The position numbers were made by a program, and so were the translations under genes. The notes below the pieces were generated by a model. That model worked only from the letters and a program-made list of their open reading frames with translations. It did no database searches and was not told the DNA's origin. DNA of 25,665 nt from a virus: positions 1 through 25,665 of IMG/VR virus record IMGVR_UViG_3300042564_002265. One strand, 5' to 3'. Positions within the stretch are counted from its first letter, which is position 1. The number at the start of each line of letters is the position of its first letter. Below, one piece after another: positions 2,970-21,709 of the stretch.

Positions 2970-3653
2970 TTATCTACTTAGATTATTTATATGTAATATA
3001 GAGAGCGTTTCTATATTTACATGTTCTGGTACCATGAGCGCCCATCTGATTGCATCCGCAACATCTTCTGGGTTTAAACAATTGTGCCTGTCACGATCAC
3101 CACGACTATTTACATTGCCTGGCGCTATCTCTGTGACTCTAATATTTTTATCCAATAATTCAAATCTTAATATTTCTGCAAGTGCTACTTCTGCATGCTT
3201 TGCAACCGTATAGCTACTTCCTCCACGATAAACAAAGTGGCCAGCCATTGATGTAATTAGTACAACGTTTCCTCCACCATTTTTTATCATTGATGGTGCT
3301 ACAGTTTTTGTCATATCCATTGCACCAATAACATTTAGATCATAAGCTTTTTTCCAGTTATCAACATCATCATTTAATATGTTATTTGGCAAATTAAATC
3401 CACCACCTGCATTATTAACTAACGCATCTATTTTTCTATCATAGATATACTTGCCAAAATTTTCTACTTCTGATCTATTTGTTATATCCATTTGGTAGAC
3501 CTCTATATTGTCTGATTCTATGGACTTAAGCTCATCTATACTTCTTGCAATTGCTATAACATGAAAATTATTTTCTGCAAGCAGCTTTGCTGTTGCCTTG
3601 CCTATGCCAAATGAGGCTCCAGTCACTACTACGGTTTTCTTTAAATTTTCCAT
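2970..3653 (-). CDS. Short-chain dehydrogenase/reductase
   Basis: A 227-aa classical SDR. It has the nucleotide-binding TGASFGIG (11-18), NNAG near residue 80-83, the catalytic Ser in ITSMAG, and Tyr/Lys as YTVAK around 147-151. An Ala-Arg-Ser sequence after the second strand suggests NADP preference (inference). The order is that of YdfG-like oxidoreductases acting on small hydroxy compounds or sugars. It sits between a second SGNH hydrolase and the lysin, close to a carbamoyltransferase, so modification of a sugar or small metabolite is a reasonable guess. The upstream promoter places the transcript start at or next to the ATG, and no ribosome binding site is seen. Confidence 0.9.
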   Translation of the reverse strand: MENLKKTVVVTGASFGIGKATAKLLAENNFHVIAIARSIDELKSIESDNIEVYQMDITNRSEVENFGKYIYDRKIDALVNNAGGGFNLPNNILNDDVDNWKKAYDLNVIGAMDMTKTVAPSMIKNGGGNVVLITSMAGHFVYRGGSSYTVAKHAEVALAEILRFELLDKNIRVTEIAPGNVNSRGDRDRHNCLNPEDVADAIRWALMVPEHVNIETLSILHINNLSR

Positions 3654-4596: not shown

Positions 4597-4670
4597 TGCG
4601 GCAGGTAGGACTCGAACCTACGATTACCGAATTATGAGTTCGGGGCTTTAACCAACTAAGCTACTGGCGC
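4597..4670 (-). tRNA. tRNA with CAT anticodon (elongator Met, or Ile reading AUA)
   Basis: A 74-nt cloverleaf. The anticodon stem CCGAA/TTCGG closes loop CTCATAA, and the T arm is GTAGG-TTCGAGT-CCTAC. The acceptor GCGCCAG pairs with CTGCCGC except for a C-C mismatch at the fourth pair. It lacks the C1-A72 mismatch and the three G-C pairs in the anticodon stem of initiators, so it is not fMet. It could be elongator Met or the lysidine-modified tRNA-Ile for AUA. With Lys-UUU and Arg-UCU, AUA decoding would fit an A+T-rich phage. Its first 23 nt are also the end of the carbamoyltransferase CDS. Confidence 0.9.
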
Positions 4671-6090
4671 CAGTTAGTATATTATATCCATAATGAGTCT
4701 GCCAGTCAATAGCATCTTTATCATTATTTAACAATGGTTGTCCTTTTATGTTTAAGCTTGTATTTAATAAAACTGGCACTCCTGTTTTTAAATAAAATTT
4801 ATTTATTGCTCTATAAAGACCAGGATGCTGCTCTCTTGTAACAGTTTGTACTCTTGATGTGCCATCCGCATGCACAACCGAAGGTATCTTTTCTGGCTGT
4901 AAGCACTTGACAGTGTACTGCATATATGGGCTTTCAAAATCCATATCAAACCATTTGTGTGCGTGATCCGCAAGAACAACTGGTGCGAATGGCCTAAACA
5001 ATTCTCTTTGTTTAATTAAATTCACTTTATCTTTAATGTTTGGATCCCTTGGATCAGCAAGTATACTCCTATTGCCAAGTGCTCTGGGTCCGTATTCAGC
5101 TCTTCCTGTTGCTACGGCTACGATTCCGTCTTTCAATATGCCGTCCAAAATTTTCTGAACAGGGTACTCTCCACCAAGGTCATAGCCAAGATAAGGAGTC
5201 TTCCAGTCAAGATGCTTTCCATATAGGGCTGCTGCTGCGCCTAAAGAACTACCAGCATCACCAGGGTTGGGCATTATCCAAATCATATCAAATATTTTCC
5301 ACAGCAGTGTATTTGCGGATGAGTTTAGTGCACATCCACCCATGAATACTAAATTATTTTTGCCAGTTAAACTTTTTGCCATACGCATAAATTGATTTAG
5401 CCTTTGCTCGTATACCATTTGTACTGCTGCTGCTATATCAAATTTATCTTGTTCTGAAATCCAACCCCAGTCAGTTATTCCTTTATGAAAATTATATTTT
5501 TGTTTATCATAACTTGGGAAATATTCGTCTACTTTTTTATAATACTTTTGCCAGTCTCCATAGGCAGCCATCCCCATCATAATATATTCTTCTTGGTTTG
5601 GCATAAGTCCAATCAACTGAGTAAAGGCTGAATAGAATAATCCAAAACTAACTGGATAGTTCTGCTTATACTTAAGTTTAATCTTGTCGCCCTCACCAAC
5701 CCATATTGTTGAGGTATTAAACTCACCAATTGCATCTAAGACTACAATACATGCATCATTGAATGCGCTTGTATAGTACCCTGCTGCTGCGTGAGAGTAA
5801 TGATGTTTGAAGTAGTGTACTGGAACATCTAAAGGAATGTTTGGCTTCCAGTCTGCTGCTCCCCCTCTTAGCATTATTCTGGATTTTTTAAGCCAAGGCT
5901 TTTCATAATAGGCTATAGCATCTGGTGTTCCATAGTTTAATGCATCTAAGATAATTTCTTTGTTGTTATACCAATCATTTTTTTGTTTACTATATCTTTC
6001 TGCATGCCCCGCAAAAAGTATCTCGCCATCTTTAATTAAAGAGACGGATGCATCGTGAGAAGTTTCATTAATTCCTAATATTATAGTCAT
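4648..6090 (-). CDS. NodU/TobZ-family carbamoyltransferase
   Basis: A 480-aa protein of the family that moves a carbamoyl group from carbamoyl phosphate to a hydroxyl, usually on a sugar, through a carbamoyl-adenylate intermediate. The N-terminal Kae1-like domain starts GINETSHDASVSL and carries HHYSHAAAGYY (about 92-102) for metal and ATP binding. The C-terminal YrdC-like domain carries the hallmark EYGPRALGNRSILADPRDP (about 329-347) and, near its end, LLNTSLNIKGQP. It is somewhat shorter than the roughly 550-600 aa of NodU but holds both domains. The last seven codons and stop lie inside the CAT tRNA gene. The substrate is unknown; a sugar on host wall, virion or modified nucleotide are all possible. 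Confidence 0.92.
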   Translation of the reverse strand: MTIILGINETSHDASVSLIKDGEILFAGHAERYSKQKNDWYNNKEIILDALNYGTPDAIAYYEKPWLKKSRIMLRGGAADWKPNIPLDVPVHYFKHHYSHAAAGYYTSAFNDACIVVLDAIGEFNTSTIWVGEGDKIKLKYKQNYPVSFGLFYSAFTQLIGLMPNQEEYIMMGMAAYGDWQKYYKKVDEYFPSYDKQKYNFHKGITDWGWISEQDKFDIAAAVQMVYEQRLNQFMRMAKSLTGKNNLVFMGGCALNSSANTLLWKIFDMIWIMPNPGDAGSSLGAAAALYGKHLDWKTPYLGYDLGGEYPVQKILDGILKDGIVAVATGRAEYGPRALGNRSILADPRDPNIKDKVNLIKQRELFRPFAPVVLADHAHKWFDMDFESPYMQYTVKCLQPEKIPSVVHADGTSRVQTVTREQHPGLYRAINKFYLKTGVPVLLNTSLNIKGQPLLNNDKDAIDWQTHYGYNILTGASSLVG

Positions 6091-12794: not shown

Positions 12795-12885
12795 TTTTAA
12801 TCCTTTTGTCCCATTTGTCTATGAATAATCCAAGTGGATACCCAATAGTAAATCCTAGCATTAATCCTAATAAAAAGATAGTCAT
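12781..12885 (-). CDS. 34-aa single-span membrane peptide
   Basis: MTIFLLGLMLGFTIGYPLGL followed by FIDKWDKRIKNGGR is a hydrophobic span with several small glycines and then a basic tail, giving an N-out or hairpin-free topology with the tail inside. The ATG overlaps the TAA of the 2OG oxygenase (TAATG), GGAAGG is upstream, and the end overlaps the next gene by 14 nt. The layout supports a real gene. The function is unknown; a small holin-like or signalling peptide is possible, though its place among recombination genes does not suggest lysis. Confidence 0.6.
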   Translation of the reverse strand: MTIFLLGLMLGFTIGYPLGLFIDKWDKRIKNGGR

Positions 12886-13838
12886 TATATCAACCTTCCA
12901 TCTATATAAGTGCTGTTACTGCTTTCAATATAAACTTTGATTGCTGGGTAATCGTAGGGATCTTGTCCGTCAATCAAAACCATTCTTTCGTTGCTACCAT
13001 TATTAACTTCATCATTTTCTCTGTCTTCTTGCATTGATTCCCATTTTGCAAGACCGTATGTATCTCTTCCTTGTATCCATTTTTCAGACCCATCATAGTA
13101 CCAAGATATAAATACACGCAAAAGATATTTATTACTACCGCTTACAACTGGCTTTGCGGCATGCCAAAATGGATGGAAAGAAGGAAATATTGTCATGTCT
13201 CCAGCCTTTGGCTTATAGGTAATAAGTTTATTTTCTTTGTCGTTTAAAAACTGTATTTCCCCACCTTCATAGTCATCGTTTAAATATATAGTTAAAGAAA
13301 GCATTTGTTTAAAGCCAGGCTCGTCTTCATGGTATCTAGAGCTATCCGAATGAAAGTTTATTGCAAAATCTTTATCTGGGTATATGTTGTGTTTTAATGC
13401 ATCAATTTGTTGCAGGGTTAGTTTTCTTTTAGAATTATCTGGTTCTATATGAGAAATATATTCTGTAGAGAGCCCAAAGTTTTTAACATAATCAGGCCAC
13501 TCTACAACATTTTTCCATTCAGACATATAGTCATTAAAAACAAAATCAATTACATTTACAATTTCTTGTTTTGTTTTAATCTGCTCAAATATAGTTTGTT
13601 TTTTTAACTCATCTTCTTCGGAGGACATTAATTTTTTGCCAACAAGATCGGGAGCAAAGTTAGTCATTATTCCAAAATCATACCACTTTACCCAGTCACG
13701 AATAAACCCTTTACCAGAAGGCTCGTGCTGATCCTTTATGTCTCCTTCTGAAATTTTAATAATATTTAAAATATTTTCAACATTATTAAACAGCCCTTTG
13801 TATACATTAATACCAGGCAATAAATTAATTTTTTCCAT
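12885..13838 (-). CDS. 2OG-Fe(II) oxygenase, tandem copy 2
   Basis: A 317-aa oxygenase. Iron ligands are H163-x-D165 in NFHSDSSRYH and H226 in FWHAAKP, with Arg241 (LLRVFISW) for 2-oxoglutarate. The core pattern LTIYLNDDYEGGEIQF and YKPKAGDMTIFPS is typical of the prolyl-hydroxylase-like P4Hc group. It is a paralogue of the gene just upstream: both share W-V-x-W-x-x-F-G near the N-terminus, a WPDY/WPEY segment before the catalytic core, and a last motif of Pro-x-Ile-Lys then Tyr-(Ile/Val)-Asp-Gly-Arg. The N-terminal 140 residues have no motif I know. The target may be protein, sugar or nucleotide. Confidence 0.88.
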   Translation of the reverse strand: MEKINLLPGINVYKGLFNNVENILNIIKISEGDIKDQHEPSGKGFIRDWVKWYDFGIMTNFAPDLVGKKLMSSEEDELKKQTIFEQIKTKQEIVNVIDFVFNDYMSEWKNVVEWPDYVKNFGLSTEYISHIEPDNSKRKLTLQQIDALKHNIYPDKDFAINFHSDSSRYHEDEPGFKQMLSLTIYLNDDYEGGEIQFLNDKENKLITYKPKAGDMTIFPSFHPFWHAAKPVVSGSNKYLLRVFISWYYDGSEKWIQGRDTYGLAKWESMQEDRENDEVNNGSNERMVLIDGQDPYDYPAIKVYIESSNSTYIDGRLI

Positions 13839-14809
13839 TACATAGATCTTCCATCTACGTAGATGTGGTTTTCTTTAGATACTTCAATTTTAATAGAAGG
13901 ATTTACATCTTGCCATTTTGTTCCTTCAATTCTAACCTCACGGTCATAGATTCCAGTAGATACCTTTTCTTGTACGCTATCATCTACCATTTGCAACCAC
14001 TTTTCTTCTCCATGTTTTTCTATTCCCTCAAACCATTCTTTTGAACCTGGGTAGTTCCATTGTGCAAAAACTCTAACAAAAACTTTCTTGTTTCCTTCAG
14101 TTACGGCTTTAGCTGAGTGGAAGTAAGGTATACCAGAAGGGAAAACGGTTACATCTCCTACAGCTGGCTTGTATGTAACAACCTTTGGAACTTCGTCAAT
14201 TTCATTTAAAAATTCAACTTCACCACCAGTATAATCGTCATTTACATAGATAGTAATTGTTATAATCTGTTGTGATCTTGGCTGACCAACTCTGTGCTTG
14301 TGTGCATCTGTGTGAAATGTAATTGCTAGATTTTTTTCTGCATGGATGTCATGCTTAAGAATTTCTATCACAGAATAATGCATTCTTCCAGCACCATCCT
14401 CATTTAGCTTCCAGTTGTCTATGTACTCTGGCCAGTATCCAGATTCAGACCACTCATTAATATAGTCTTTAAATACAACTGAAAATATAGCATAAAGTTT
14501 TTCTCTAAACTCGTATAAAAACTTTATGTTTTCATCATTAATATCTTCTGGCATTTTTTTAAAGTTATAAAATGTTTTTTTACCAAAAGTATGCCAAGGA
14601 ACCCATTCATTTAAAGGGGAAATATCTTCCATTTCTTTTGGCAAAACTCCGTGGTTATCGCCTCTTGTTGATAGTTCTTCGTGAGTAATCTCAAATTGGC
14701 TTGTGTCATTTTCATACAAATCCATTAAATTATAAAATCTTTTTAGCTCTTCTTTATTAAACATATCTTTGTATATAACTACTTGTGGCATTACTTGATA
14801 TTTATTCAT
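13838..14809 (-). CDS. 2OG-Fe(II) oxygenase, tandem copy 1
   Basis: A 323-aa oxygenase. Iron ligands are H166-x-D168 in TFHTDAHKH and H231 in PYFHSAKAV, with Arg246 in VFVRVFAQW. The strands ITIYVNDDYTGGEVEFLN and VTYKPAVGDVTVFPSG match the copy downstream closely, so the pair arose by duplication and then diverged widely at DNA level. GGGAGGAAC lies just before the ATG, a strong ribosome binding site. The TAA overlaps the next ATG by one base, and the start overlaps the nuclease-like gene upstream by 8 nt. Both copies keep all catalytic residues, which suggests two related but different substrates. Confidence 0.88.
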   Translation of the reverse strand: MNKYQVMPQVVIYKDMFNKEELKRFYNLMDLYENDTSQFEITHEELSTRGDNHGVLPKEMEDISPLNEWVPWHTFGKKTFYNFKKMPEDINDENIKFLYEFREKLYAIFSVVFKDYINEWSESGYWPEYIDNWKLNEDGAGRMHYSVIEILKHDIHAEKNLAITFHTDAHKHRVGQPRSQQIITITIYVNDDYTGGEVEFLNEIDEVPKVVTYKPAVGDVTVFPSGIPYFHSAKAVTEGNKKVFVRVFAQWNYPGSKEWFEGIEKHGEEKWLQMVDDSVQEKVSTGIYDREVRIEGTKWQDVNPSIKIEVSKENHIYVDGRSM

Positions 14810-15107
14810 GATGTTCCTCCCAGAACTCTATTAACTCTTCTAAAACTGACCACTCTATGATCCCTAGCCTAACCTTAGACTCGGACCCTATAATAATTTT
14901 TAAAGCTGGATGCATGTCTCTATCGACCCTAAACGTGTCTGTGCATATCTTTGCCCAGTTATCTTTGTTTAAAGTGAATGAAGATCCAGCCTCTTTATAA
15001 TCAACAAGAAACTTTTTCCATTGTGCATCACCTTTCTGATAGTCTCCCCTACCAGAATTCTTTTGTGCTTTTGCACCGTCTCTTTTTACTTCTGATCTTT
15101 CAGACAT
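14802..15107 (-). CDS. Small PD-(D/E)XK-like, Holliday-junction-resolvase-like protein
   Basis: A 101-aa basic protein opening MSERSEVKRDGAKAQKNSGRG, then KGDAQWKKFLVDYKEAGSSF and a hydrophobic end IIEWSVLEELIEFW. The order Ser-Gly-Arg-Gly, Gly-Asp, then Val-Asp-x-Lys recalls the D...DxK core of Hjc or VRR-NUC-type small nucleases, and similar proteins are common in actinophages. The assignment is by motif order only. If correct, the phage has two junction-processing enzymes, this one and the RuvC-like protein. It follows the zinc-ribbon gene with a one-base overlap. Confidence 0.5.
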   Translation of the reverse strand: MSERSEVKRDGAKAQKNSGRGDYQKGDAQWKKFLVDYKEAGSSFTLNKDNWAKICTDTFRVDRDMHPALKIIIGSESKVRLGIIEWSVLEELIEFWEEHHE

Positions 15108-15304
15108 TATCCAACCGTATACCTTGTCTCATGCCCGTCTTTACATTTCCAATACATTTCCATTGTTTGATTATTGAATTGATATGAATCAACGTATAGA
15201 TCACATTTAGAGCACGGTCTCATATTTTCTATACTCTCAACTCTATTATCAAATACTGGTTCTTCTGCAATAGGCTTATTTAAAAATTCGTTAAGATTTG
15301 GCAT
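15107..15304 (-). CDS. Small zinc-ribbon protein next to RecA
   Basis: A 65-aa protein starting MPNLNEF; GAGGA lies 5 nt before this ATG, so I prefer it to an ATG four codons upstream. The C-terminal half has CSKC (about 31-34), then WKCKDGHE with Cys and His suited to complete one zinc site. The short N-terminal stretch is acidic and probably unfolded. The start overlaps the end of RecA by 14 nt. It may be a RecA accessory or a nucleic-acid-binding adaptor, which is inference from position. Confidence 0.7.
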   Translation of the reverse strand: MPNLNEFLNKPIAEEPVFDNRVESIENMRPCSKCDLYVDSYQFNNQTMEMYWKCKDGHETRYTVG

Positions 15305-16295
15305 CAATATCCTCAATTAGTTTATCAACAACTTCTGGGTTGTCTCTTAAATAAGCAACAGCCTTTGCACGTCCCTGTAGTCTTTCTCCATTAACTGTAT
15401 ACCAGGCTCCACCTTTTTCAACCGCTCCAACCATTTCTGCAACATCTAAGGTCTCTCCAACTAGGTCTACACCTAGTGACTCTCCTTGGTAATAGAAATC
15501 GTACTGTCCAGATAAGTTAGGGGGGCCGAGTTTGTTGTAATCAATAATCCAATTGACTGGTCTGCCAACCCTTTGTTCAATAATTTTGTCACCAACTTTA
15601 ATGCCAGCTTTGATAGCATTAGCTTCAGCCTCAGAAGACCAAAGTTTAATGACGGTGGAAGAGAAGAACTTGACTGCCATTCCTCCTGTCGGTATGTGGG
15701 AGGCATGCATAGATCCAAACTGATTTCTCTGTTGTGAGATGAGTACCAATAGTGTGTTCTTGTTTGCATAGTTTAACATCTTGACTGCGTGAGTCATATC
15801 CTTTGCTTCAGCGCCGATTTGCTTTGTGTCTTGCAAATCTTTCATTTCATTTCCATCTTTTTCAAAATAAATTGCTGGGAGTAGCGCTGATATAGAATCA
15901 ACTACAATAATATCAACACCAGCGTCCATCAACTTAGTAGCAACATCTACCATATCATTAACTGTTTTAGCTGTGGAATAGATAAGGGAAGAGGAATCTA
16001 CTCCGAGCATCTCTGCCCAAGACTGATCGTATGAAGCCTCAGCATCAATCCAAGCACAAGTCTTTCCTTCTTTTTGTGCAAGCGCAATCATTTGTAAACA
16101 GAATGAAGACTTTCCAGCAGACTTATTTCCCCATACCAGAACTTGTCTTCCGTATCCAAGGCCGCCTTTTAATGCCATGTTGAGTCCAATACTTGGCGTC
16201 TTCTGCTTTTCAACTTTTACATCTTGCGCTGCTTTTACTCTTGCTCTTGTTTTTGGATCTAATCCTGCTAGGATTTCATCAATCGCTATAGTCAT
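15291..16295 (-). CDS. recA: RecA-like recombinase
   Basis: A 334-aa RecA. Walker A is GNKSAGKSS (56-64), Walker B lies in VDIIVVDSISALLP, and the L2-adjacent ISQQRNQFG and GGMAVKFFSS segments match the family. The length is close to that of cellular RecA without most of the C-terminal domain. It drives strand exchange for recombination-dependent replication and repair. It is preceded by its own promoter and a short leader with weak ribosome binding (AGAGAG), and it heads the recombination operon. Confidence 0.92.
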   Translation of the reverse strand: MTIAIDEILAGLDPKTRARVKAAQDVKVEKQKTPSIGLNMALKGGLGYGRQVLVWGNKSAGKSSFCLQMIALAQKEGKTCAWIDAEASYDQSWAEMLGVDSSSLIYSTAKTVNDMVDVATKLMDAGVDIIVVDSISALLPAIYFEKDGNEMKDLQDTKQIGAEAKDMTHAVKMLNYANKNTLLVLISQQRNQFGSMHASHIPTGGMAVKFFSSTVIKLWSSEAEANAIKAGIKVGDKIIEQRVGRPVNWIIDYNKLGPPNLSGQYDFYYQGESLGVDLVGETLDVAEMVGAVEKGGAWYTVNGERLQGRAKAVAYLRDNPEVVDKLIEDIDAKS

Positions 16296-16316: not shown

Positions 16317-16345
16317 ATTATATCATTAAAATAAATTGCCGTGAA
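16317..16345 (-). promoter_or_regulatory. Promoter for recA and the recombination operon
   Basis: On the minus strand TGATATAAT (extended -10, 16317-16325) is preceded at exactly 17 bp by TTCACG (16340-16345), a 4 of 6 match to TTGACA. It begins at the very end of the MazG-like gene. The predicted start near 16310 leaves a leader of about 15 nt before the recA ATG. Confidence 0.6.
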
Positions 16346-16715
16346 GCATTGGTCTTACTTTATTTTTTTCCATTTTTTTAAATAGGACTTCATCTAGGCT
16401 GTTCTCTACAAATCCACCATTACGCATTGAAGCATATAGATCAAGAGTTCTAATTAGAATATCAACCATCTCTTCTACAATTTCTTCAGAGCCCTTATTC
16501 TTTCTCATTGCCTCAAGAACCTCTGTAACTTCAGAGTGAATTAGTGCTATCTTACTTCCAAAAACATCAAAGTTTTTTGGCTTATCCCAAAATCCTTTTT
16601 CAATAGCAGTCTCATGAAGTAAAGCAGAAAGAACATCCAGTCCAAAATCTGTTACTAGTTCTATTTCTTTATTCGAAACTTTCAATGAGCTGGTCGTTAT
16701 TGAATCCTGGACCAT
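16326..16715 (-). CDS. MazG-like nucleotide pyrophosphohydrolase
   Basis: A 129-aa all-helical protein. E62-x-x-E65 in LIHSEVTEVLEAM and E82-x-x-D85 in EIVEEMVDILIRTLD form the ExxE...ExxD metal site of MazG/dUTPase-superfamily enzymes that split NTPs or dNTPs into the monophosphate and pyrophosphate. Phage MazG proteins have been linked to nucleotide-pool control. The predicted start overlaps the upstream paralogue gene by 47 nt. A TTG about ten codons later would shorten that overlap, so the start is uncertain. It ends the DnaE operon, just before the recA promoter. Confidence 0.78.
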   Translation of the reverse strand: MVQDSITTSSLKVSNKEIELVTDFGLDVLSALLHETAIEKGFWDKPKNFDVFGSKIALIHSEVTEVLEAMRKNKGSEEIVEEMVDILIRTLDLYASMRNGGFVENSLDEVLFKKMEKNKVRPMLHGNLF

Positions 16716-17175
16716 CTTGGTTTTCCTCCTTAACGTATGGAAACTGCCTCTTGTATGTACTATTACCCCATCCTTGAATATTCCAAGGTCTTCTAATTGA
16801 AAAAAACCCTATGCAATTTCCTTCTTGAATCATCCTATCTCCCTCTTCTTCATTACATAATCTGAACTTTACCTTGTCTGTCTCCTGATCATACTGAACA
16901 AGGACATGGCCTCCTAGATCTTTAATGTAATCTGTGTAGCTTTCATCATAAGGGTTTATATTTTCATCGTTTTTAATAGGTTCTGAGTTTCTAATTGGCA
17001 TCATATCTTCTCGATTAAAAGCAGCTTGCGGCATTTGGCTAAGCATAAAACCCAAAAGAATTGAAGAGTTTAGTTTCTGATAAATATCTGTAACGTCTGA
17101 TTTTCTTTCGTTTACTACATCTTCTCTAACATGCTTGCCGTCAGAGGTGTACACGTCATCATCATTAGTTGTCAT
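16669..17175 (-). CDS. Paralogue family member 4 of 4, unknown function
   Basis: A 168-aa acidic protein with no family I know. It shares with the gene at 17362-17787 a helical segment with LNSS (35-38), an almost identical YIKDLGGHVLVQYD (83-96), and GFFSIRRPWN (123-132). It carries a longer C-terminal tail with no counterpart in the others. The core looks like one or two helices followed by a beta-hairpin or small sheet. It overlaps the gene before it by 11 nt and the MazG-like gene after it by 47 nt. Its place suggests a role tied to replication or nucleotide supply (inference). Confidence 0.85.
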   Translation of the reverse strand: MTTNDDDVYTSDGKHVREDVVNERKSDVTDIYQKLNSSILLGFMLSQMPQAAFNREDMMPIRNSEPIKNDENINPYDESYTDYIKDLGGHVLVQYDQETDKVKFRLCNEEEGDRMIQEGNCIGFFSIRRPWNIQGWGNSTYKRQFPYVKEENQDGPGFNNDQLIESFE

Positions 17176-17362
17176 CTTTATCCTTTAGCTTAAACTTAAA
17201 CGATTGATTATCCGAATCGTAATCAACCTGCAGTTCTTTATCAACAGTTGCCGCATCTAAAAATAATTTGCTTGGCACTATAATTTCTTTATGTATCTCT
17301 AAAATTGCAACTAATATTTTTGAAACATTAAGAGATGCAAAAATATCTTGTTCTTCTGTCAC
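17165..17362 (-). CDS. Paralogue family member 3 of 4, short version
   Basis: A 65-aa protein that keeps only part of the family: LNVSKIL (11-17) in the helix and LQVDYDSDNQSFKFKL (44-59) in the hairpin, which aligns with AQIDYDFDNQIFTFNL of member 1. The YIKDLGG segment and the C-terminal IRRPWN motif are missing. It is cleanly bounded by coupled starts and stops, so it looks like a stable short form rather than a broken gene. It may act as a partner or inhibitor of the longer members, which is a guess. Confidence 0.78.
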   Translation of the reverse strand: MTEEQDIFASLNVSKILVAILEIHKEIIVPSKLFLDAATVDKELQVDYDSDNQSFKFKLKDKDDN

Positions 17363-17787
17363 TATCTTTCCTCCTGATTTTGCTTAATGCTGTGGACATT
17401 CCACGGCCTTCTTATTGAAAAAAATCCTACAGAATTGCCTTTTATTTGAGAATCAATTCCTTCTTCTCTAGTTGTTAAAGTAAGCAATACGTCGTCTGAC
17501 TGCGGATCATATTTTACAAGAACATGCCCGCCAAGGTCCTTGATATAATCAAAAAAATCTTCATCGTACGGGTTAACTGATGTATTGTTGGGTGCAATTT
17601 CGTATTCATTAATTTGAATGACTTCATCTCTCTTAAAAGATATTGTTCCAAAATTTTGAAAAATCATTGTAAGTAGAGTTGAGGCATTTAGTCTATGAAA
17701 GACTTCCTCTATCTCAGAGTTTCTTTTGTGACACTCATCTTTTGTTAAAGTAATTCCGTCCTCTAAATATATGTTATGAGTGGGCAT
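17362..17787 (-). CDS. Paralogue family member 2 of 4, unknown function
   Basis: A 141-aa protein closest to member 4. Shared segments are LNASTLL (33-39), YIKDLGGHVLVKYD (81-94) and GFFSIRRPWN (121-130). It starts 14 nt inside member 1 and its stop overlaps the start of member 3 (TAATG). There is no signal peptide, membrane segment or recognisable catalytic triad. The conserved Arg-Arg-Pro-Trp end could contact nucleic acid or a partner. Confidence 0.85.
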   Translation of the reverse strand: MPTHNIYLEDGITLTKDECHKRNSEIEEVFHRLNASTLLTMIFQNFGTISFKRDEVIQINEYEIAPNNTSVNPYDEDFFDYIKDLGGHVLVKYDPQSDDVLLTLTTREEGIDSQIKGNSVGFFSIRRPWNVHSIKQNQEER

Positions 17788-18133
17788 AGTCGTTCCATCT
17801 AGATCTCAAGCAGACATAGCCAAGATCATTACCGATTCCTGACCTCGCCTCTGCTTCTTCTTTTGACATTAAATTAAAAGTAAATATTTGATTATCAAAA
17901 TCATAATCTATTTGTGCATATCCTCCTCGCTCTTTAATGTAATCCATGTATGTATCCATGTAGGTGTCTATTGCATCAAAATCTTGAAGATCTTCTGGCT
18001 TATGATAATTCATAATTTTATCTAGCTCTTTTTTTGGAATTGACACTGGTCCGACTGATTTTAATACGGCTGTAAGCAAATTAGTTGCATTAAATCTTTT
18101 TACTAACTTCTCTAGCTCGGTGGGTTCGTTCAT
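17774..18133 (-). CDS. Paralogue family member 1 of 4, unknown function
   Basis: A 119-aa protein with the family pattern in more diverged form: FNATNLL (14-20), YIKERGGYAQIDYD (65-78), FDNQIFTFNL and GYVCLRSRWN (105-114). AGAGGA is 5 nt before its ATG, which overlaps the stop of the 15-codon mini-ORF (ATGA). The four members run directly after DnaE in one operon, so all should be made with the polymerase. Confidence 0.85.
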   Translation of the reverse strand: MNEPTELEKLVKRFNATNLLTAVLKSVGPVSIPKKELDKIMNYHKPEDLQDFDAIDTYMDTYMDYIKERGGYAQIDYDFDNQIFTFNLMSKEEAEARSGIGNDLGYVCLRSRWNDYAHS

Positions 18134-18177
18134 ACAAGTCCTCTTTCATGTTTAATAAATTCTTTTGTATTTGTCAT
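18130..18177 (-). CDS. 15-aa mini-ORF linking DnaE to the paralogue cassette
   Basis: MTNTKEFIKHERGLV is bounded on both sides by ATGA overlaps, with the dnaE TGA before it and the ATG of paralogue 1 after it. It has its own AAGGA six bases upstream of the ATG. It may be a coupling peptide that passes ribosomes from dnaE to the next gene, a small protein in its own right, or chance. Only its bounds and ribosome binding site support it. Confidence 0.4.
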   Translation of the reverse strand: MTNTKEFIKHERGLV

Positions 18178-21100
18178 AGTATTTCCTTAATGTTTAAAGT
18201 TCCGTCATCTAGCTTTGCTAGTTTGACTTTACATTTCATGCCTTCACGCATTTTAGCAAGAGTCATTTTATACATTGCTGGGAAAGCAATTGCTCTAGTT
18301 AAGTTCTTGTCTTTATCTGAGAGAACTATGTGACTCATTTGCTTACCAGCCTTTGTTGTGTATGGAGTAAAGTTTACCACAATGTACTCGTCTTCTTCAA
18401 GGTCGTATTTTTTTCTATATAAATAGTCTACAAAAAGGTCGGTGGAGTCTGGGTTTATATCAGAAACCTTAATGTACCTTGCAATTCTATTATCCCCGAC
18501 AAGGATAAAGTACATTTGTCCTGTTTCAATTTGTGTCTGCTCTGTGTGGAATAAACCTATTGATCCAGTCTCATCTACCAGCTCTACTCTTGCCCAGCCG
18601 TTTCCTCGTTTAATAGACTTAACCATTCCAAACATAACAAATGATCCCAGGTCATCAAACTCTTCAATTGGTCTTGCCTGTGCTTTAATTCTTGGCGGAA
18701 TGCCTTCAAGATTAAATGTTGGTATACCTAGGTATTCGTAGTAATTGTCTTTTTCATTTCCTTGCCTTTTGTTATCAGTAAACGCAGCACCGCCGATGGA
18801 GTTAAGAGCAGCAATAGCACGGCTATTAATGCCAGAACCCTTTTTCGATGCCTTATCAATAAAGTCAGAATAGTCACTGAACGGTCTTCTTTCTATTATC
18901 TTGTTTGCAATGCTGTCTGAAATAAACTTTACTTCAGCCAATCCAAATCTAATTGCGTTATCTTGTAGTGAAAAATAAACCTGAGATTCGTTGATATGGG
19001 GGAGTAATACTTTTAGGCCAAGTCTCTTTGACTCAATTAAATATTCCGTTCTTGCATCTTTATCATTTTCGTTTTTAAGAACTGAAAACATGAACTCAAG
19101 AGGATAATAGGACTTAAGCCAAGCAGTATAATAACTAAGCATAGAGTAAGCAACAGCATGGGAACGGTTGAAAGAATAACCAGCATGCGCTTCAAAGTCG
19201 TGCCAAAGCGCCTCTGCTTTTTTCTTAGTAATGTGTTCTGAAGCCCCAGCAATAAACTTATCCTTGAACTGGTCGAATTCTTTTGCATCTTTTTTCTTTC
19301 CAATAATCTTGCGGACCTTATCAGCCTCTGCCCAAGTCATACCGCCCAAGTGTACACATGCCTGCATAACCTGCTCTTGATATATGATAACACCATATGT
19401 ATTCTCGGTAAAAGGCTTCATAATGGTATGCATATAGTCTACTGCTTCGTTGCCATTTTTGCGATTAATGTAAGCAGCGCCAACAGTATTCATTGCTCCT
19501 GGTCTAACCAATGCATTTGATGCTGCTAGATCTTCAAATTTATCTACACCCATTTTAATCAAAAGGTTTGTATATGGTGTAGCTTCAGCCTGGAAAACAC
19601 CCTTTGTGTAACCATCATTCAGCATCTTATAAACATTAGCATCATCTAGCGGGAGCTCGGAAAGATTGATTGTTTTCCCATGCCTATCCTTAATAGATTT
19701 TAGAGTATCAGAAATTACTGATAGCGTCTTCAGCCCAAGAGCATCTAACTTAATCAGTCCAATATCAGCAACAGTATCCATATCATATGCGACAACTGGG
19801 ATTCTTCCAGAAACCTTATCCTGAGAGTCTTCACGAGATTCAACTGGTGCAAACTTTCTTAAATCATCTTTTGCGACAACCACACCAGCGGCGTGTACGC
19901 CAACTGATCTGATTCTTCCACGAAGCCTGTCGGCAAGCCAAACAACTTCTGGATAGCGCATTCTAAATTCTTTTGTATTCGGTGAATCAATAAAATCCTC
20001 AAAGGTATCTACGGATTTTAGTGCACGGTTAACTTCTTGAAGTGGAACCATGAAAACACGAGAAGCATCTCTAACCACACCTTTGTCTTTAAAGTATGTA
20101 TATGTTGAAATAGATGCAACGTGCTTAAACTTCTTCTTTAAATAATCTTTAACTTCTTTTCTACGTCGGTCTTCAAAGTCGGTATCGATATCTGGAAAGT
20201 CGTTGCGCTCTTCATTAATAAATCTAAAGAACAGAAGATCGTATTTAATAGGGTCAACATCGGTAATTCCTAATGTATAACAAACTAAAGATCCAGCAGC
20301 TGAACCACGGCCTGGACCAACCATAATATTATTTTCTTTAGCCCAATTAACCATGTCTCCAACAACAAGGAAATATGAGGCAAAATTTTTCTTGGCAATA
20401 ATCCCAAGCTCTTCGTCAAGCCTATCCTTATAAATAGGGTCTGAGGCCTTCAGAAGCCTATCTAAGCCCTTTTCAGCCAACTCCCTTAGTCTTTCATCAG
20501 CATCAGTCTTTGGGACTGGTAGGAGGTCTAGGCCCTGATAGAAGTCATAGTCTGCAACCTTATCAGCAATTTCCATGGTATTTTCATATATATCTGTGCG
20601 CTGGATACCAGCCTTGTTAAAGTCCGCCTCTATCTCTGAACGGCTTTGAATAAATAGATTCATATCTTGAAATGAGATTCTTCGATCAGGATAAAGATAG
20701 TTAAATCTATCTAACATATCCTTCATGTTTCTAGACATATCGAAATCCATATCCTTATCAGCCTTTGGAGATGTTGATAGGATGAGCAATGCTTCTTCTA
20801 GGATTCTATCTTCTTCTTTAGCAAAGTGAGCATCTCCTGTTGCCACCGCTTTAATTCCAAGTTTGTCTGCTAATTCTAGAAGGGCGGAGTTGATCTCCAT
20901 AGGGTTATGTGATTGCACTTCCACGTAAAAATCTTGTCCGAAAGTTTGTTTAAAGTCTTTGAGAAGAAGTTCTGCTTCCTCCATGTTACCTTTATCGATA
21001 GCCTTACTAATGAGTCCATTAAGACATCCGCTGAGAACGATAATACCTTCGCTATAATCATTTAAAACCTCTCTATCAATACGTGGCTTATGATAAAAGC

Positions 21101-21443
21101 CTTCGTTCCAAGCAAGTTCTTGTAGAATATTTATATTCTCCAGCCCCTTTTTATTTTTCGCTAGCAGAATAATATGGTTGTAGGCCTGAATAGACTTGTC
21201 TGTTTTAGAAGATCTGTCAAACCTATCGGTTGGAGAAATGTACGCCTCAACACCAAGAATTGGCTTAATGCCAGTTTCCTTTGCGGCAATCTGCATATCT
21301 CTGTGTGAAGAGAGAGTACCATGGTCTGTAATTGCAATCGCAGTTTGCCCAGCATCTAACGCTGCTTGGCATAATTCTTTAGGTGAATTTAGTCCATCCA
21401 TTAATGAATAGTAGGAGTGAACATGTAGGTGTGTAAAGCTCAT
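18174..21443 (-). CDS. dnaE: DnaE-type DNA polymerase III alpha subunit
   Basis: A 1089-aa C-family replicative polymerase. I start it at MSFTHLHVHS, whose ATG overlaps the TAA of the upstream gene; a longer frame adds six residues. The N-terminal PHP domain has HLHVH (5-9) and AITDHGTL. The catalytic palm has GRGSAAGS (about 376-383) and FPDIDTDF (about 414-421), with the catalytic Asp pair. Fingers, a tandem HhH region and an OB fold (ARVELVDETGSIGLF, about 950-965) follow. It is slightly shorter than bacterial DnaE at about 1160 aa and lacks an obvious clamp-binding tail. No separate 3'-5' exonuclease is seen, so the PHP domain may proofread (inference). Confidence 0.95.
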   Translation of the reverse strand: MSFTHLHVHSYYSLMDGLNSPKELCQAALDAGQTAIAITDHGTLSSHRDMQIAAKETGIKPILGVEAYISPTDRFDRSSKTDKSIQAYNHIILLAKNKKGLENINILQELAWNEGFYHKPRIDREVLNDYSEGIIVLSGCLNGLISKAIDKGNMEEAELLLKDFKQTFGQDFYVEVQSHNPMEINSALLELADKLGIKAVATGDAHFAKEEDRILEEALLILSTSPKADKDMDFDMSRNMKDMLDRFNYLYPDRRISFQDMNLFIQSRSEIEADFNKAGIQRTDIYENTMEIADKVADYDFYQGLDLLPVPKTDADERLRELAEKGLDRLLKASDPIYKDRLDEELGIIAKKNFASYFLVVGDMVNWAKENNIMVGPGRGSAAGSLVCYTLGITDVDPIKYDLLFFRFINEERNDFPDIDTDFEDRRRKEVKDYLKKKFKHVASISTYTYFKDKGVVRDASRVFMVPLQEVNRALKSVDTFEDFIDSPNTKEFRMRYPEVVWLADRLRGRIRSVGVHAAGVVVAKDDLRKFAPVESREDSQDKVSGRIPVVAYDMDTVADIGLIKLDALGLKTLSVISDTLKSIKDRHGKTINLSELPLDDANVYKMLNDGYTKGVFQAEATPYTNLLIKMGVDKFEDLAASNALVRPGAMNTVGAAYINRKNGNEAVDYMHTIMKPFTENTYGVIIYQEQVMQACVHLGGMTWAEADKVRKIIGKKKDAKEFDQFKDKFIAGASEHITKKKAEALWHDFEAHAGYSFNRSHAVAYSMLSYYTAWLKSYYPLEFMFSVLKNENDKDARTEYLIESKRLGLKVLLPHINESQVYFSLQDNAIRFGLAEVKFISDSIANKIIERRPFSDYSDFIDKASKKGSGINSRAIAALNSIGGAAFTDNKRQGNEKDNYYEYLGIPTFNLEGIPPRIKAQARPIEEFDDLGSFVMFGMVKSIKRGNGWARVELVDETGSIGLFHTEQTQIETGQMYFILVGDNRIARYIKVSDINPDSTDLFVDYLYRKKYDLEEDEYIVVNFTPYTTKAGKQMSHIVLSDKDKNLTRAIAFPAMYKMTLAKMREGMKCKVKLAKLDDGTLNIKEIL

Positions 21444-21649
21444 TAGTATCCGCCTGTGCATTCATTTCTAGTATGATATAACCTAATTTTAGTTAATATC
21501 TTTTTTGTTGGTGCATATAAATCTTCTTTACAGCATCCACATTTCATATGCCATTCTCTAGCAAAGAAATCGTATACTGCACCTACATAATTTTTATACT
21601 TATTTGAAACAAATGTCTCAAATGGATCTGGTATCTCGTAGGTAATCAT
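21443..21649 (-). CDS. 68-aa Cys protein upstream of dnaE, unknown function
   Basis: The protein opens MITYEIPDPFETF and contains MKCGCCKEDLYAP (about 35-47), with three clustered Cys, then a Lys-rich stretch and a last Cys in NECTGGY. Four Cys could form one zinc or iron-sulfur site. It is not a clear WhiB, since the spacing and the G-x-W motif are absent. It is the first gene of the dnaE operon, with its ATG placed for leaderless initiation, and its stop overlaps the dnaE start. A regulator or polymerase accessory is possible. Confidence 0.7.
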   Translation of the reverse strand: MITYEIPDPFETFVSNKYKNYVGAVYDFFAREWHMKCGCCKEDLYAPTKKILTKIRLYHTRNECTGGY

Positions 21650-21655
21650 GTTGTC

Positions 21656-21684
21656 ATTCTACTAAATAACACAGGGGCAGTCAA
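21656..21684 (-). promoter_or_regulatory. Sigma70-type promoter for the dnaE operon, leaderless
   Basis: The minus strand has TTGACT (21679-21684, 5 of 6 to TTGACA), a 17-bp spacer and TAGAAT (21656-21661, 5 of 6 to TATAAT). Six bases (GACAAC) separate the -10 from the ATG at 21649, so the transcript should start at the start codon and has no Shine-Dalgarno. The -35 lies inside the terminator hairpin of the upstream gene. Confidence 0.65.
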
Positions 21685-21697
21685 TAGACTGCCCCTG
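21672..21697 (-). terminator. Hairpin terminator after the single-strand-binding gene
   Basis: CAGGGGCAGTC (21672-21682) and GACTGCCCCTG (21687-21697) form a perfect 11-bp GC-rich stem with a 4-base loop. It lies 13 bp past the stop of the SSB gene. On the minus strand it is followed by a U-rich but interrupted tract (TGTTATTTAG). The plus side is also A/T-rich, so it may work in both directions. It is the only strong hairpin of this type I found. Confidence 0.8.
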
Positions 21698-21709
21698 CTA
21701 TTTAATTAT

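Follow-up and report, generated by a model that had tools for sequence, protein, structure and literature searches.

The four-gene array downstream of dnaE

The virus record analysed here (the window) is 25,665 bases long, and the genes in question are four small minus-strand genes that we named P1 to P4, from the dnaE side toward mazG. P1 (17774-18133, 119 amino acids (aa)), P2 (17362-17787, 141 aa) and P4 (16669-17175, 168 aa) are long paralogues, while P3 (17165-17362, 65 aa, GTG start) is the conserved core member. On the same strand, dnaE (18174-21461) encodes a C-family DNA polymerase III alpha of 1095 aa (Pfam PF07733, E 2.5e-76, also PF17657 and PHP; phrog_405), with up to 57.6% identity to the DnaE of Streptomyces phages. 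A mazG-like nucleotide pyrophosphohydrolase gene (16326-16715; Pfam MazG, E 4.8e-5) follows P4, and a recA/uvsX-like recombinase gene (15291-16295; PF00154, E 9e-37) forms the opposite border of the interval, both also on the minus strand. The gap between dnaE and P1 is 40 nucleotides (nt). From P1 to mazG the genes overlap, by 14 nt (P1/P2), 1 nt (P2/P3), 11 nt (P3/P4) and 47 nt (P4/mazG, 16669-16715, minus strand), and the last of these overlaps, at the 5′ end of mazG, also encodes the final P4 residues, NNDQLIESFE.

An initial annotation had placed four paralogous genes between DnaE and MazG at 16669-18133; this span proved exact, and the kinship was borne out by profile searches. Run against 1259 open reading frames (ORFs), a profile made from P3-type proteins alone retrieved window-type P4 (E 5.8e-6) and window-type P1 (E 1.5e-5), as well as a fifth paralogue type beyond those of the window, P5 (E 2.2e-6). 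P2 alone was not reached by this profile (E 2.4) and is counted in the family because of its 39% identity to P4. The profile-profile comparison of P3 with the P1/P2/P4 alignment gave an E-value of 1.3e-10. On these sequence comparisons, P1 to P4 are confirmed as real and homologous genes. All four products are acidic, with isoelectric points (pI) of 4.5-4.8. Between the window and its close relative L032, the ratio of nonsynonymous to synonymous substitution rates (dN/dS) is 0.19 for P2, 0.09 for P3 and 0.04 for P4, which are under purifying selection; the P1 value of 0.135 is unreliable because dS is saturated.

In the alignments, a helix with N-x-[ST] is followed by a short strand, another helix and a Y-D hairpin, and this core is shared. 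In the long members the hairpin is preceded by an extra segment and the C-terminus is extended by G-[FY]-x-x-x-R-x-x-WN; the short forms cover roughly positions 5-48 and 73-94 of the 125 in the long-form profile. Member 3 had been described as devoid of the first and last motifs of the family; P3 does lack the WN end, as well as YIK-x-x-GG, but the first motif is present in it as SLNVS, and so is the YD hairpin. Similarly, the near-identity ascribed to members 2 and 4 is seen in the motifs of P2 and P4 but not in their overall identity, which is the 39% given above.

The family had not been recognised by the initial annotation, and we likewise obtained no credible named-family match for the four window proteins. 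P1 to P4 have no match at E <= 1 in Pfam or PHROGs and only partial weak matches in NCBIfam and PADLOC, the strongest being that of P1 to PDC-M09B in PADLOC (E 2.4e-4), which covers 53 of 486 profile positions. This match and that of P1 to Cas12a (E 0.0035) are partial and probably due to chance; for P2 to P4, two Streptomyces proteins and one P5, PADLOC gave no match. No P2 homologue was found in 50,697 annotated phage records (best E 3), among which the P3 proteins of L139 and L142 had chance matches only. No homologue was detected in cellular genomes with the A3 or A6 scans, which required exact peptide patterns that distant members could escape. Two further candidates, DUF3006 (4 of 24 members, best E 0.013) and Peptidase_M10_C (1 of 24 members, E 0.0067), were judged to be chance matches.

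The AlphaFold2 (AF2) model of P3 (mean predicted local distance difference test score (pLDDT) 77) has helices at residues 13-24 and 31-36 and strands at 42-49 and 54-61. That of P2 (mean pLDDT 70) has helices at 35-46, 53-61 and 81-85 and strands at 49-52, 88-94 and 99-105, plus an N-terminal hairpin and helix and, past the hairpin, a helix and a strand. The helix-strand-helix-(helix)-hairpin order of P2 matches that of P3, the two being compared by element order without superposition, and this agreement is independent because the input alignments had no rows in common. No usable match was found for P2 by Foldseek in PDB (best E 0.83) or in BFVD, or for either model by VIA-align, P3 having been compared with PDB folds only via the VIA-align candidates. 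Two sequence searches of solved structures yielded nine chance-level matches in one and none in the other. The missing structure match does not show a new fold.

The models bear on one possible role, that of winged-helix DNA-binding accessory factors whose long members would bind DNA near the fork. The element order of the P2 model fits the helix-strand-helix-helix-strand-strand order of a winged helix, and several of the weak PDB matches are winged-helix regulators (ScpB, MepR and AbfR, E 0.8-3.5). No match is significant (best E 0.83, Z at most 2.2), the proteins are acidic, and the pLDDT of P2 is only 50-60 over residues 61-90, all of which makes this role improbable.

P3 as the constant core between dnaE and recA

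To place the array among its relatives, 93 loci were compared: the window, 80 loci fetched by a DnaE profile (L071-L150, the best 80 of at least 582 relatives in IMG/VR) and 12 of L030-L046. Outside this set are the duplicate contigs L033, L036, L042, L047 and L064 (equal to L084, L105, L125, L093 and L071, respectively) and the contigs L038, L065 and L035/L055; L038 and L065 show the same arrangement, and L055 begins inside P2. Near-identical contigs from separate samples were counted individually, and 71 of the 85 full dnaE genes differ by more than 0.5%; the window, L030 and L031 are the same virus in the dnaE-recA region. Both dnaE and recA are spanned by 91 of the 93 loci, L146 ending in dnaE and L086, in which P3 is present, ending before recA.

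P3 lies between dnaE and recA in all 91 loci that span both, and P1, P2 and P4 are found in a minority. Counting recognised genes, the array is P3-mazG in 51 loci, P3 alone in 17 and P1-P2-P3-mazG in 11. The complete P1-P2-P3-P4-mazG array of the window occurs in four loci, three of which are the one virus mentioned above. P3-mazG-P5 and P3-P5 were each found twice, and P5-P3-mazG, P1-P4-P3-mazG-P5, P5-P3-mazG-P5 and P1-P2-P3-mazG-P5 once each. In a scan with a P3 profile only, in which dnaE was ignored (best 80 of 198 relatives, many of the contigs being shared with the set of 93), 77 of the 80 loci have P3 downstream of dnaE and no more than 2 kb away, 58 of the 77 without a recognised gene in between, and the remaining three contigs begin at P3 or one gene earlier. 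A P5 scan returned 36 loci, 34 of them between dnaE and recA and two between recA and the Holliday junction resolvase (HJR) gene. Moreover, the long-form profile, run over the whole of 14 records, had matches in the ten related ones (some of them fragments), confined to the dnaE-recA region, and in none of the four Streptomyces phage genomes. In L251 the profile sees no P3, but a diverged P3 can be recognised by eye in its dnaE-recA gap. P3 is thus the constant core of the family and not a degenerate short form, and its constancy also led us to reject it as a fragment of P2 or P4. A link to the upstream polymerase, one of the possibilities raised in the initial annotation, fits this strict dnaE synteny.

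The same loci speak to a role as partners of MazG or of nucleotide metabolism. We recognised mazG in 72 of the 91 loci, P4 overlaps the mazG start in the window, and mazG (7) or a dUTPase gene (3) comes next in 10 annotated Streptomyces phage records. Yet P3 is kept in the 19 loci where mazG was not recognised. In 16 of these the dnaE-recA gap is only 226-311 nt, filled by P3 and with no room for mazG; a diverged mazG could escape in the other three, the search having used a single query (phmmer, E 1e-6). mazG is dispensable in the dnaE-recA interval, and since the loci devoid of it retain P3, the link points to dnaE or recA and a MazG partnership is very unlikely.

For the paralogues, a maximum-likelihood tree was built from 36 distinct long and P5 proteins. 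A single branch separates each of P1, P2, P4 and P5 from the rest, P2 and P4 being sisters (support 98/95) and the P1 group having support of only 69/66; long branches meet, as flagged by the program for P4 with P1 and for P2 with P5, and we are unsure of the root and the deeper branching order. Each type forming one branch, they are old paralogues rather than recent tandem copies. The local gene expansion proposed earlier, with member 3 as its short form, was therefore not upheld, and a recent tandem duplication in the window was rejected, the tree requiring one change per type with P2 and P4 as sisters. Members found later are outside the tree. For example, L228 (4257-4981), L229 (1637-2361) and L230 (4257-4981) carry a separate array, in which two diverged long members (with scores of 80 and 100 against the P4 and P1 profiles) precede P3 and mazG, and the family is wider than the named types.

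A DNA alignment of five sequences suggests how one array grew. From the mazG start codon on, the same DNA codes for the P3 tail in relatives devoid of P4 and for the P4 tail in the window, and the P4 of L033, which does not adjoin mazG, is without the NNDQLIESFE tail. P4 has probably entered the array immediately ahead of the mazG start codon. As for P1, 10 of the 12 genes compared between the window and L032 are 91-100% identical (94-99% for P2 to P4), with a small Zn-type gene at 74% and P1 at 52%. In the tree, the P1 of L032 groups with that of L084 and the P1 of the window with that of L034. This grouping, together with the 52% identity and the saturated dS, indicates that the P1 allele was exchanged between close relatives. 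The selected diversity assumed in the initial annotation has one support, this P1 allele swap, while P2, P3 and P4 are conserved between the window and L032.

Several side observations concern the interval itself, which looks like an insertion hotspot. An unrelated ORF of 112-134 aa with the motif C-x-C-H-x-C-I-T-N-D-V-L-Q is inserted between dnaE and P1 (L034:1658-2008, L040:2833-3237, L045:7666-8004, L093:9285-9653), and another of 75-76 aa precedes P3 in L073 (L073:8144-8374), L078, L079, L080 and L089. In L045 (4382-7669) dnaE is split into ORFs of 134 and 921 aa, possibly by a sequencing or assembly error, and L046 has a single ORF at the same coordinates.

Distant relatives in Streptomyces phages

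The replication block of the window (helicase, primase, SSB, dnaE, mazG, recA, HJR, PD-(D/E)XK/Cas4-like nuclease and RuvC) has the gene order of Streptomyces Stanwilliamsviridae phages, and because of this kinship the host of the window virus may be an actinobacterium. A short gene directly follows dnaE in all 10 annotated Streptomyces records mentioned above. The short proteins of Braelyn and Circinus have relatives in 86 and 38 phage records, respectively, sets that may overlap; the matches listed, 30 for each, are all from Streptomyces phages.

Two types of short gene were distinguished. The phrog_12174 type is a hypothetical gene of Boydwoodruffvirinae (Braelyn gp79, Mildred21 gp79, Bmoc gp79) located, like P3, in the dnaE-mazG interval. 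It shares with P3 the order dnaE - short gene - mazG - recA, the size (59-65 aa) and the helix and hairpin, and the profile-profile E-value is 8e-6 (hhalign). A single short ORF between dnaE and mazG/recA, as in phrog_12174, is typical of the P3 class, and the window differs in that P2 and P4 stand on either side of its P3. In Braelyn and Yaboi, no P1, P2, P4 or P5 was detected with the long-form profile. The phrog_12174 model, to which Braelyn gp79 scores E 6e-43, misses the window P3 at E <= 1. The window P3, having no PHROG match, would therefore be a distant homologue and not a member. TIGR04140, a candidate for Braelyn gp79 (E 0.0019, below cut-off), was judged a chance match.

The second type, Circinus/BillNye gp59 of Loccivirinae, occupies the same place as P3, has 63 aa and matches it at a profile-profile E-value of 6e-7; Circinus gp59 has no match in PHROGs or NCBIfam. 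It is followed by a dUTPase gene in Circinus, Comrade and Muntaha and by mazG in Sham and Emma1919, and no long-form relative was found in Circinus and Comrade with the long-form profile.

When the P3 profile was run against 64 neighbouring proteins of Circinus and Braelyn (dnaE and two genes per phage cut by the region ends being outside the set), the counterparts ranked first and second (E 5e-5 and 0.003), the best being that of Circinus, and the next protein scored 0.034. Among the BFVD models, a 63-aa Muntaha protein (rank 4, probability 0.97, E 0.05) and a 59-aa Mildred21 protein (rank 6, probability 0.99, E 0.13) were matched by the P3 model; they fit the genes adjacent to dnaE, as matched by length and phage name only. 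No Foldseek E-value below 0.001 was obtained for the P3 model against predicted viral structures. Single-protein alignments to P3 are weak (Mildred21 E 0.013, Quaran19 E 0.003), and a 20-row P3 profile gave no HMMER match at E <= 1 in five Stanwilliamsviridae genomes. By profile comparisons and gene position, the short genes adjacent to dnaE in Streptomyces phages are distant relatives of P3, themselves hypothetical. As to whether the family had already been described, no named family was found, but distant relatives of both types do sit at the same place.

Small proteins or rings that serve DnaE-type polymerases include theta/HolE, psi and the processivity factors. The likeness of the polymerase III accessory subunits theta/HolE and psi to P3 is one of gene position only, and no named accessory subunit was among the solved-structure sequence matches or the fold-search matches listed.

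Coupling to the polymerase and possible roles

The dnaE stop codon overlaps the start of the first family gene in 75 of 92 loci (67 P3, 7 P1, 1 P5), the overlap being ATGA in 71 and GTGA in four, and ribosome sites of the AAGGAG/AAGGAA type precede P3 in most of the 92 loci. Combined with the constant tie to dnaE, the dispensable mazG and the lack of a canonical clamp-binding motif in the polymerase (see below), this start makes a translationally coupled DnaE accessory factor the best explanation for the family, one that we put forward tentatively. The family would then consist of small acidic proteins that assist the phage replication module. P3, a protein of two helices and a beta-hairpin, would be produced by translational coupling to the polymerase gene and would most likely bind DnaE, or DnaE on primed DNA, and aid its work, for example by stabilising or tethering a polymerase without the usual clamp-binding motif. 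The older paralogues P1, P2 and P4 may add to the role of P3 in some phages by a division of labour.

According to PMC3919608, a clamp-binding motif close to QL[S/D]LF is present in nearly all bacterial DnaE1 proteins, and non-Q clamp motifs are described there for DnaE2 and DnaE3. We did not find Q-x-x-[LMIF]-F in 84 of 85 full DnaEs of the aquatic set, the sole match lying at residue 272, or in any of the 11 DnaEs of a second set that included the window; the E. coli DnaE control gave QADMF at 920. The position aligned to the E. coli motif is a gap, then YL, in the window and three Streptomyces phages. Similarly, the beta-clamp model PF02767 had no match in any of 10 related records, of which four are complete Streptomyces phages and six are contigs that may be incomplete, and it did have matches in 10 of 14 control genomes. 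The phages might use the host clamp by another motif, or another factor. Fusion of P3 to the DnaE C-terminus in distant phages was also considered and rejected (P3 profile against 11 DnaEs, best E 0.73).

Several observations weigh against an accessory factor of DnaE. In the window itself, P1 starts 40 nt past dnaE, without a stop-start overlap. The correlation of P3 distances with DnaE distances (r 0.57, 70 loci) speaks for the link, but that of recA with DnaE is as high (r 0.61), and mazG reaches r 0.50. The median pairwise difference is 0.59 for P3 against 0.13 for DnaE, and such rapid evolution is unusual for a core replisome subunit. The next domain of the aquatic DnaEs contains SFVMF in 80 of 85 and SFIMF in one more, non-canonical strings through which weak binding to the host clamp could still take place. 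Moreover, a P3-like gene is missing downstream of dnaE in seven DnaE phages that are more distant, which means that a polymerase of this kind can dispense with it; in E3, Pupper, BirthdayBoy and GBK1 the next known gene follows dnaE directly with nothing between, and in Sauce, Rusticus and Rooney the small genes at this place were rejected as P3 (hhalign E 0.23-0.45). Since distant phage DnaEs also are without the Q-type motif, P3 does not simply follow motif loss. The constant linkage and the coupling to dnaE hold within the P3-bearing clade only, and synteny is not binding.

Regulation of the phage RecA/UvsX recombinase, by loading or inhibition, would account for part of the same data, and with recA as a border of the interval a recombination role stays open. 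In the P3-only scan recA is within 2.5 kb downstream of P3 in 80 of 80 loci, its distances correlate with those of DnaE to the extent given above, synteny cannot tell the two partners apart, and P5 sits between recA and HJR in two of its 36 loci. It is dnaE, though, and not recA, that has the start-stop overlap, and mazG, P5 or P4 can separate P3 from recA, which leaves this role rather unlikely.

The fast evolution of P3 and the exchange of P1 also keep open a host-directed role, as small acidic host-takeover or counter-defence proteins in a tolerated early-gene slot, with paralogues and allele swaps reflecting an arms race. The acidity of all four proteins, the replacement of P1 by a distant allele between close relatives and the presence of unrelated ORFs in the same interval agree with this. 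Counter-defence genes are typically patchy, and P3 was kept in every locus spanning dnaE and recA; only P1 had PADLOC matches, partial and weak, and P2 to P4 are nearly unchanged between the window and L032. We consider a host-directed role unlikely, but one to be kept in mind.

Within the accessory-factor explanation, P3 could be a dedicated, clamp-independent processivity or tethering subunit of a C-family replicase, with P1, P2, P4 and P5 as an expandable set of subunits, a doubtful proposal at present. If true, P3 would do what the ring-shaped beta clamp has so far done for polymerases of the Pol III family. PMC3919608 treats the processivity of DnaE-type polymerases without a clamp-binding motif as an open question for some bacteria. 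The present phage clade has a motif-less polymerase, no beta-clamp match in the 10 records and a small gene beside the polymerase gene in every complete interval, which makes the question testable with two purified proteins and is a reason to examine the hypothetical genes at the dnaE-adjacent place in Streptomyces phages. The core gene is already known as an unnamed hypothetical in Streptomyces phages; among the matches listed by full-text searches of open-licence papers, there was nothing on the P1-P5 genes, the constancy of P3 beside dnaE, the paralogous expansion or the absent clamp motif.

Upstream of dnaE, a G+C-rich 12-bp hairpin lies between SSB and dnaE (21671-21698), with a promoter-like match over it on the minus strand (21684-21656). 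The two are possibly a terminator and a start, with dnaE-P1-P2-P3-P4-mazG as one transcription unit; region-wide, promoter-like matches are at chance level (22 found, 22.1 expected).

Other genes of the window were noted in passing. After recA, a 69-aa protein with CxxC and CxxGH (15107-15316), zinc-ribbon-like by eye, is encoded by the Zn-type gene that is 74% identical in L032; the gene is also present in most related loci and its rate of evolution is close to that of P3 (median difference 0.56). Two adjacent 2-oxoglutarate (2OG)-Fe(II) oxygenase genes (PF13640) at 12885-14809 both match phrog_61. Finally, a carbamoyltransferase gene (4648-6090; PF16861, E 2.7e-55, and PF02543) and, one gene away, a short-chain dehydrogenase gene (2970-3653) are possible DNA or glycan modification genes.

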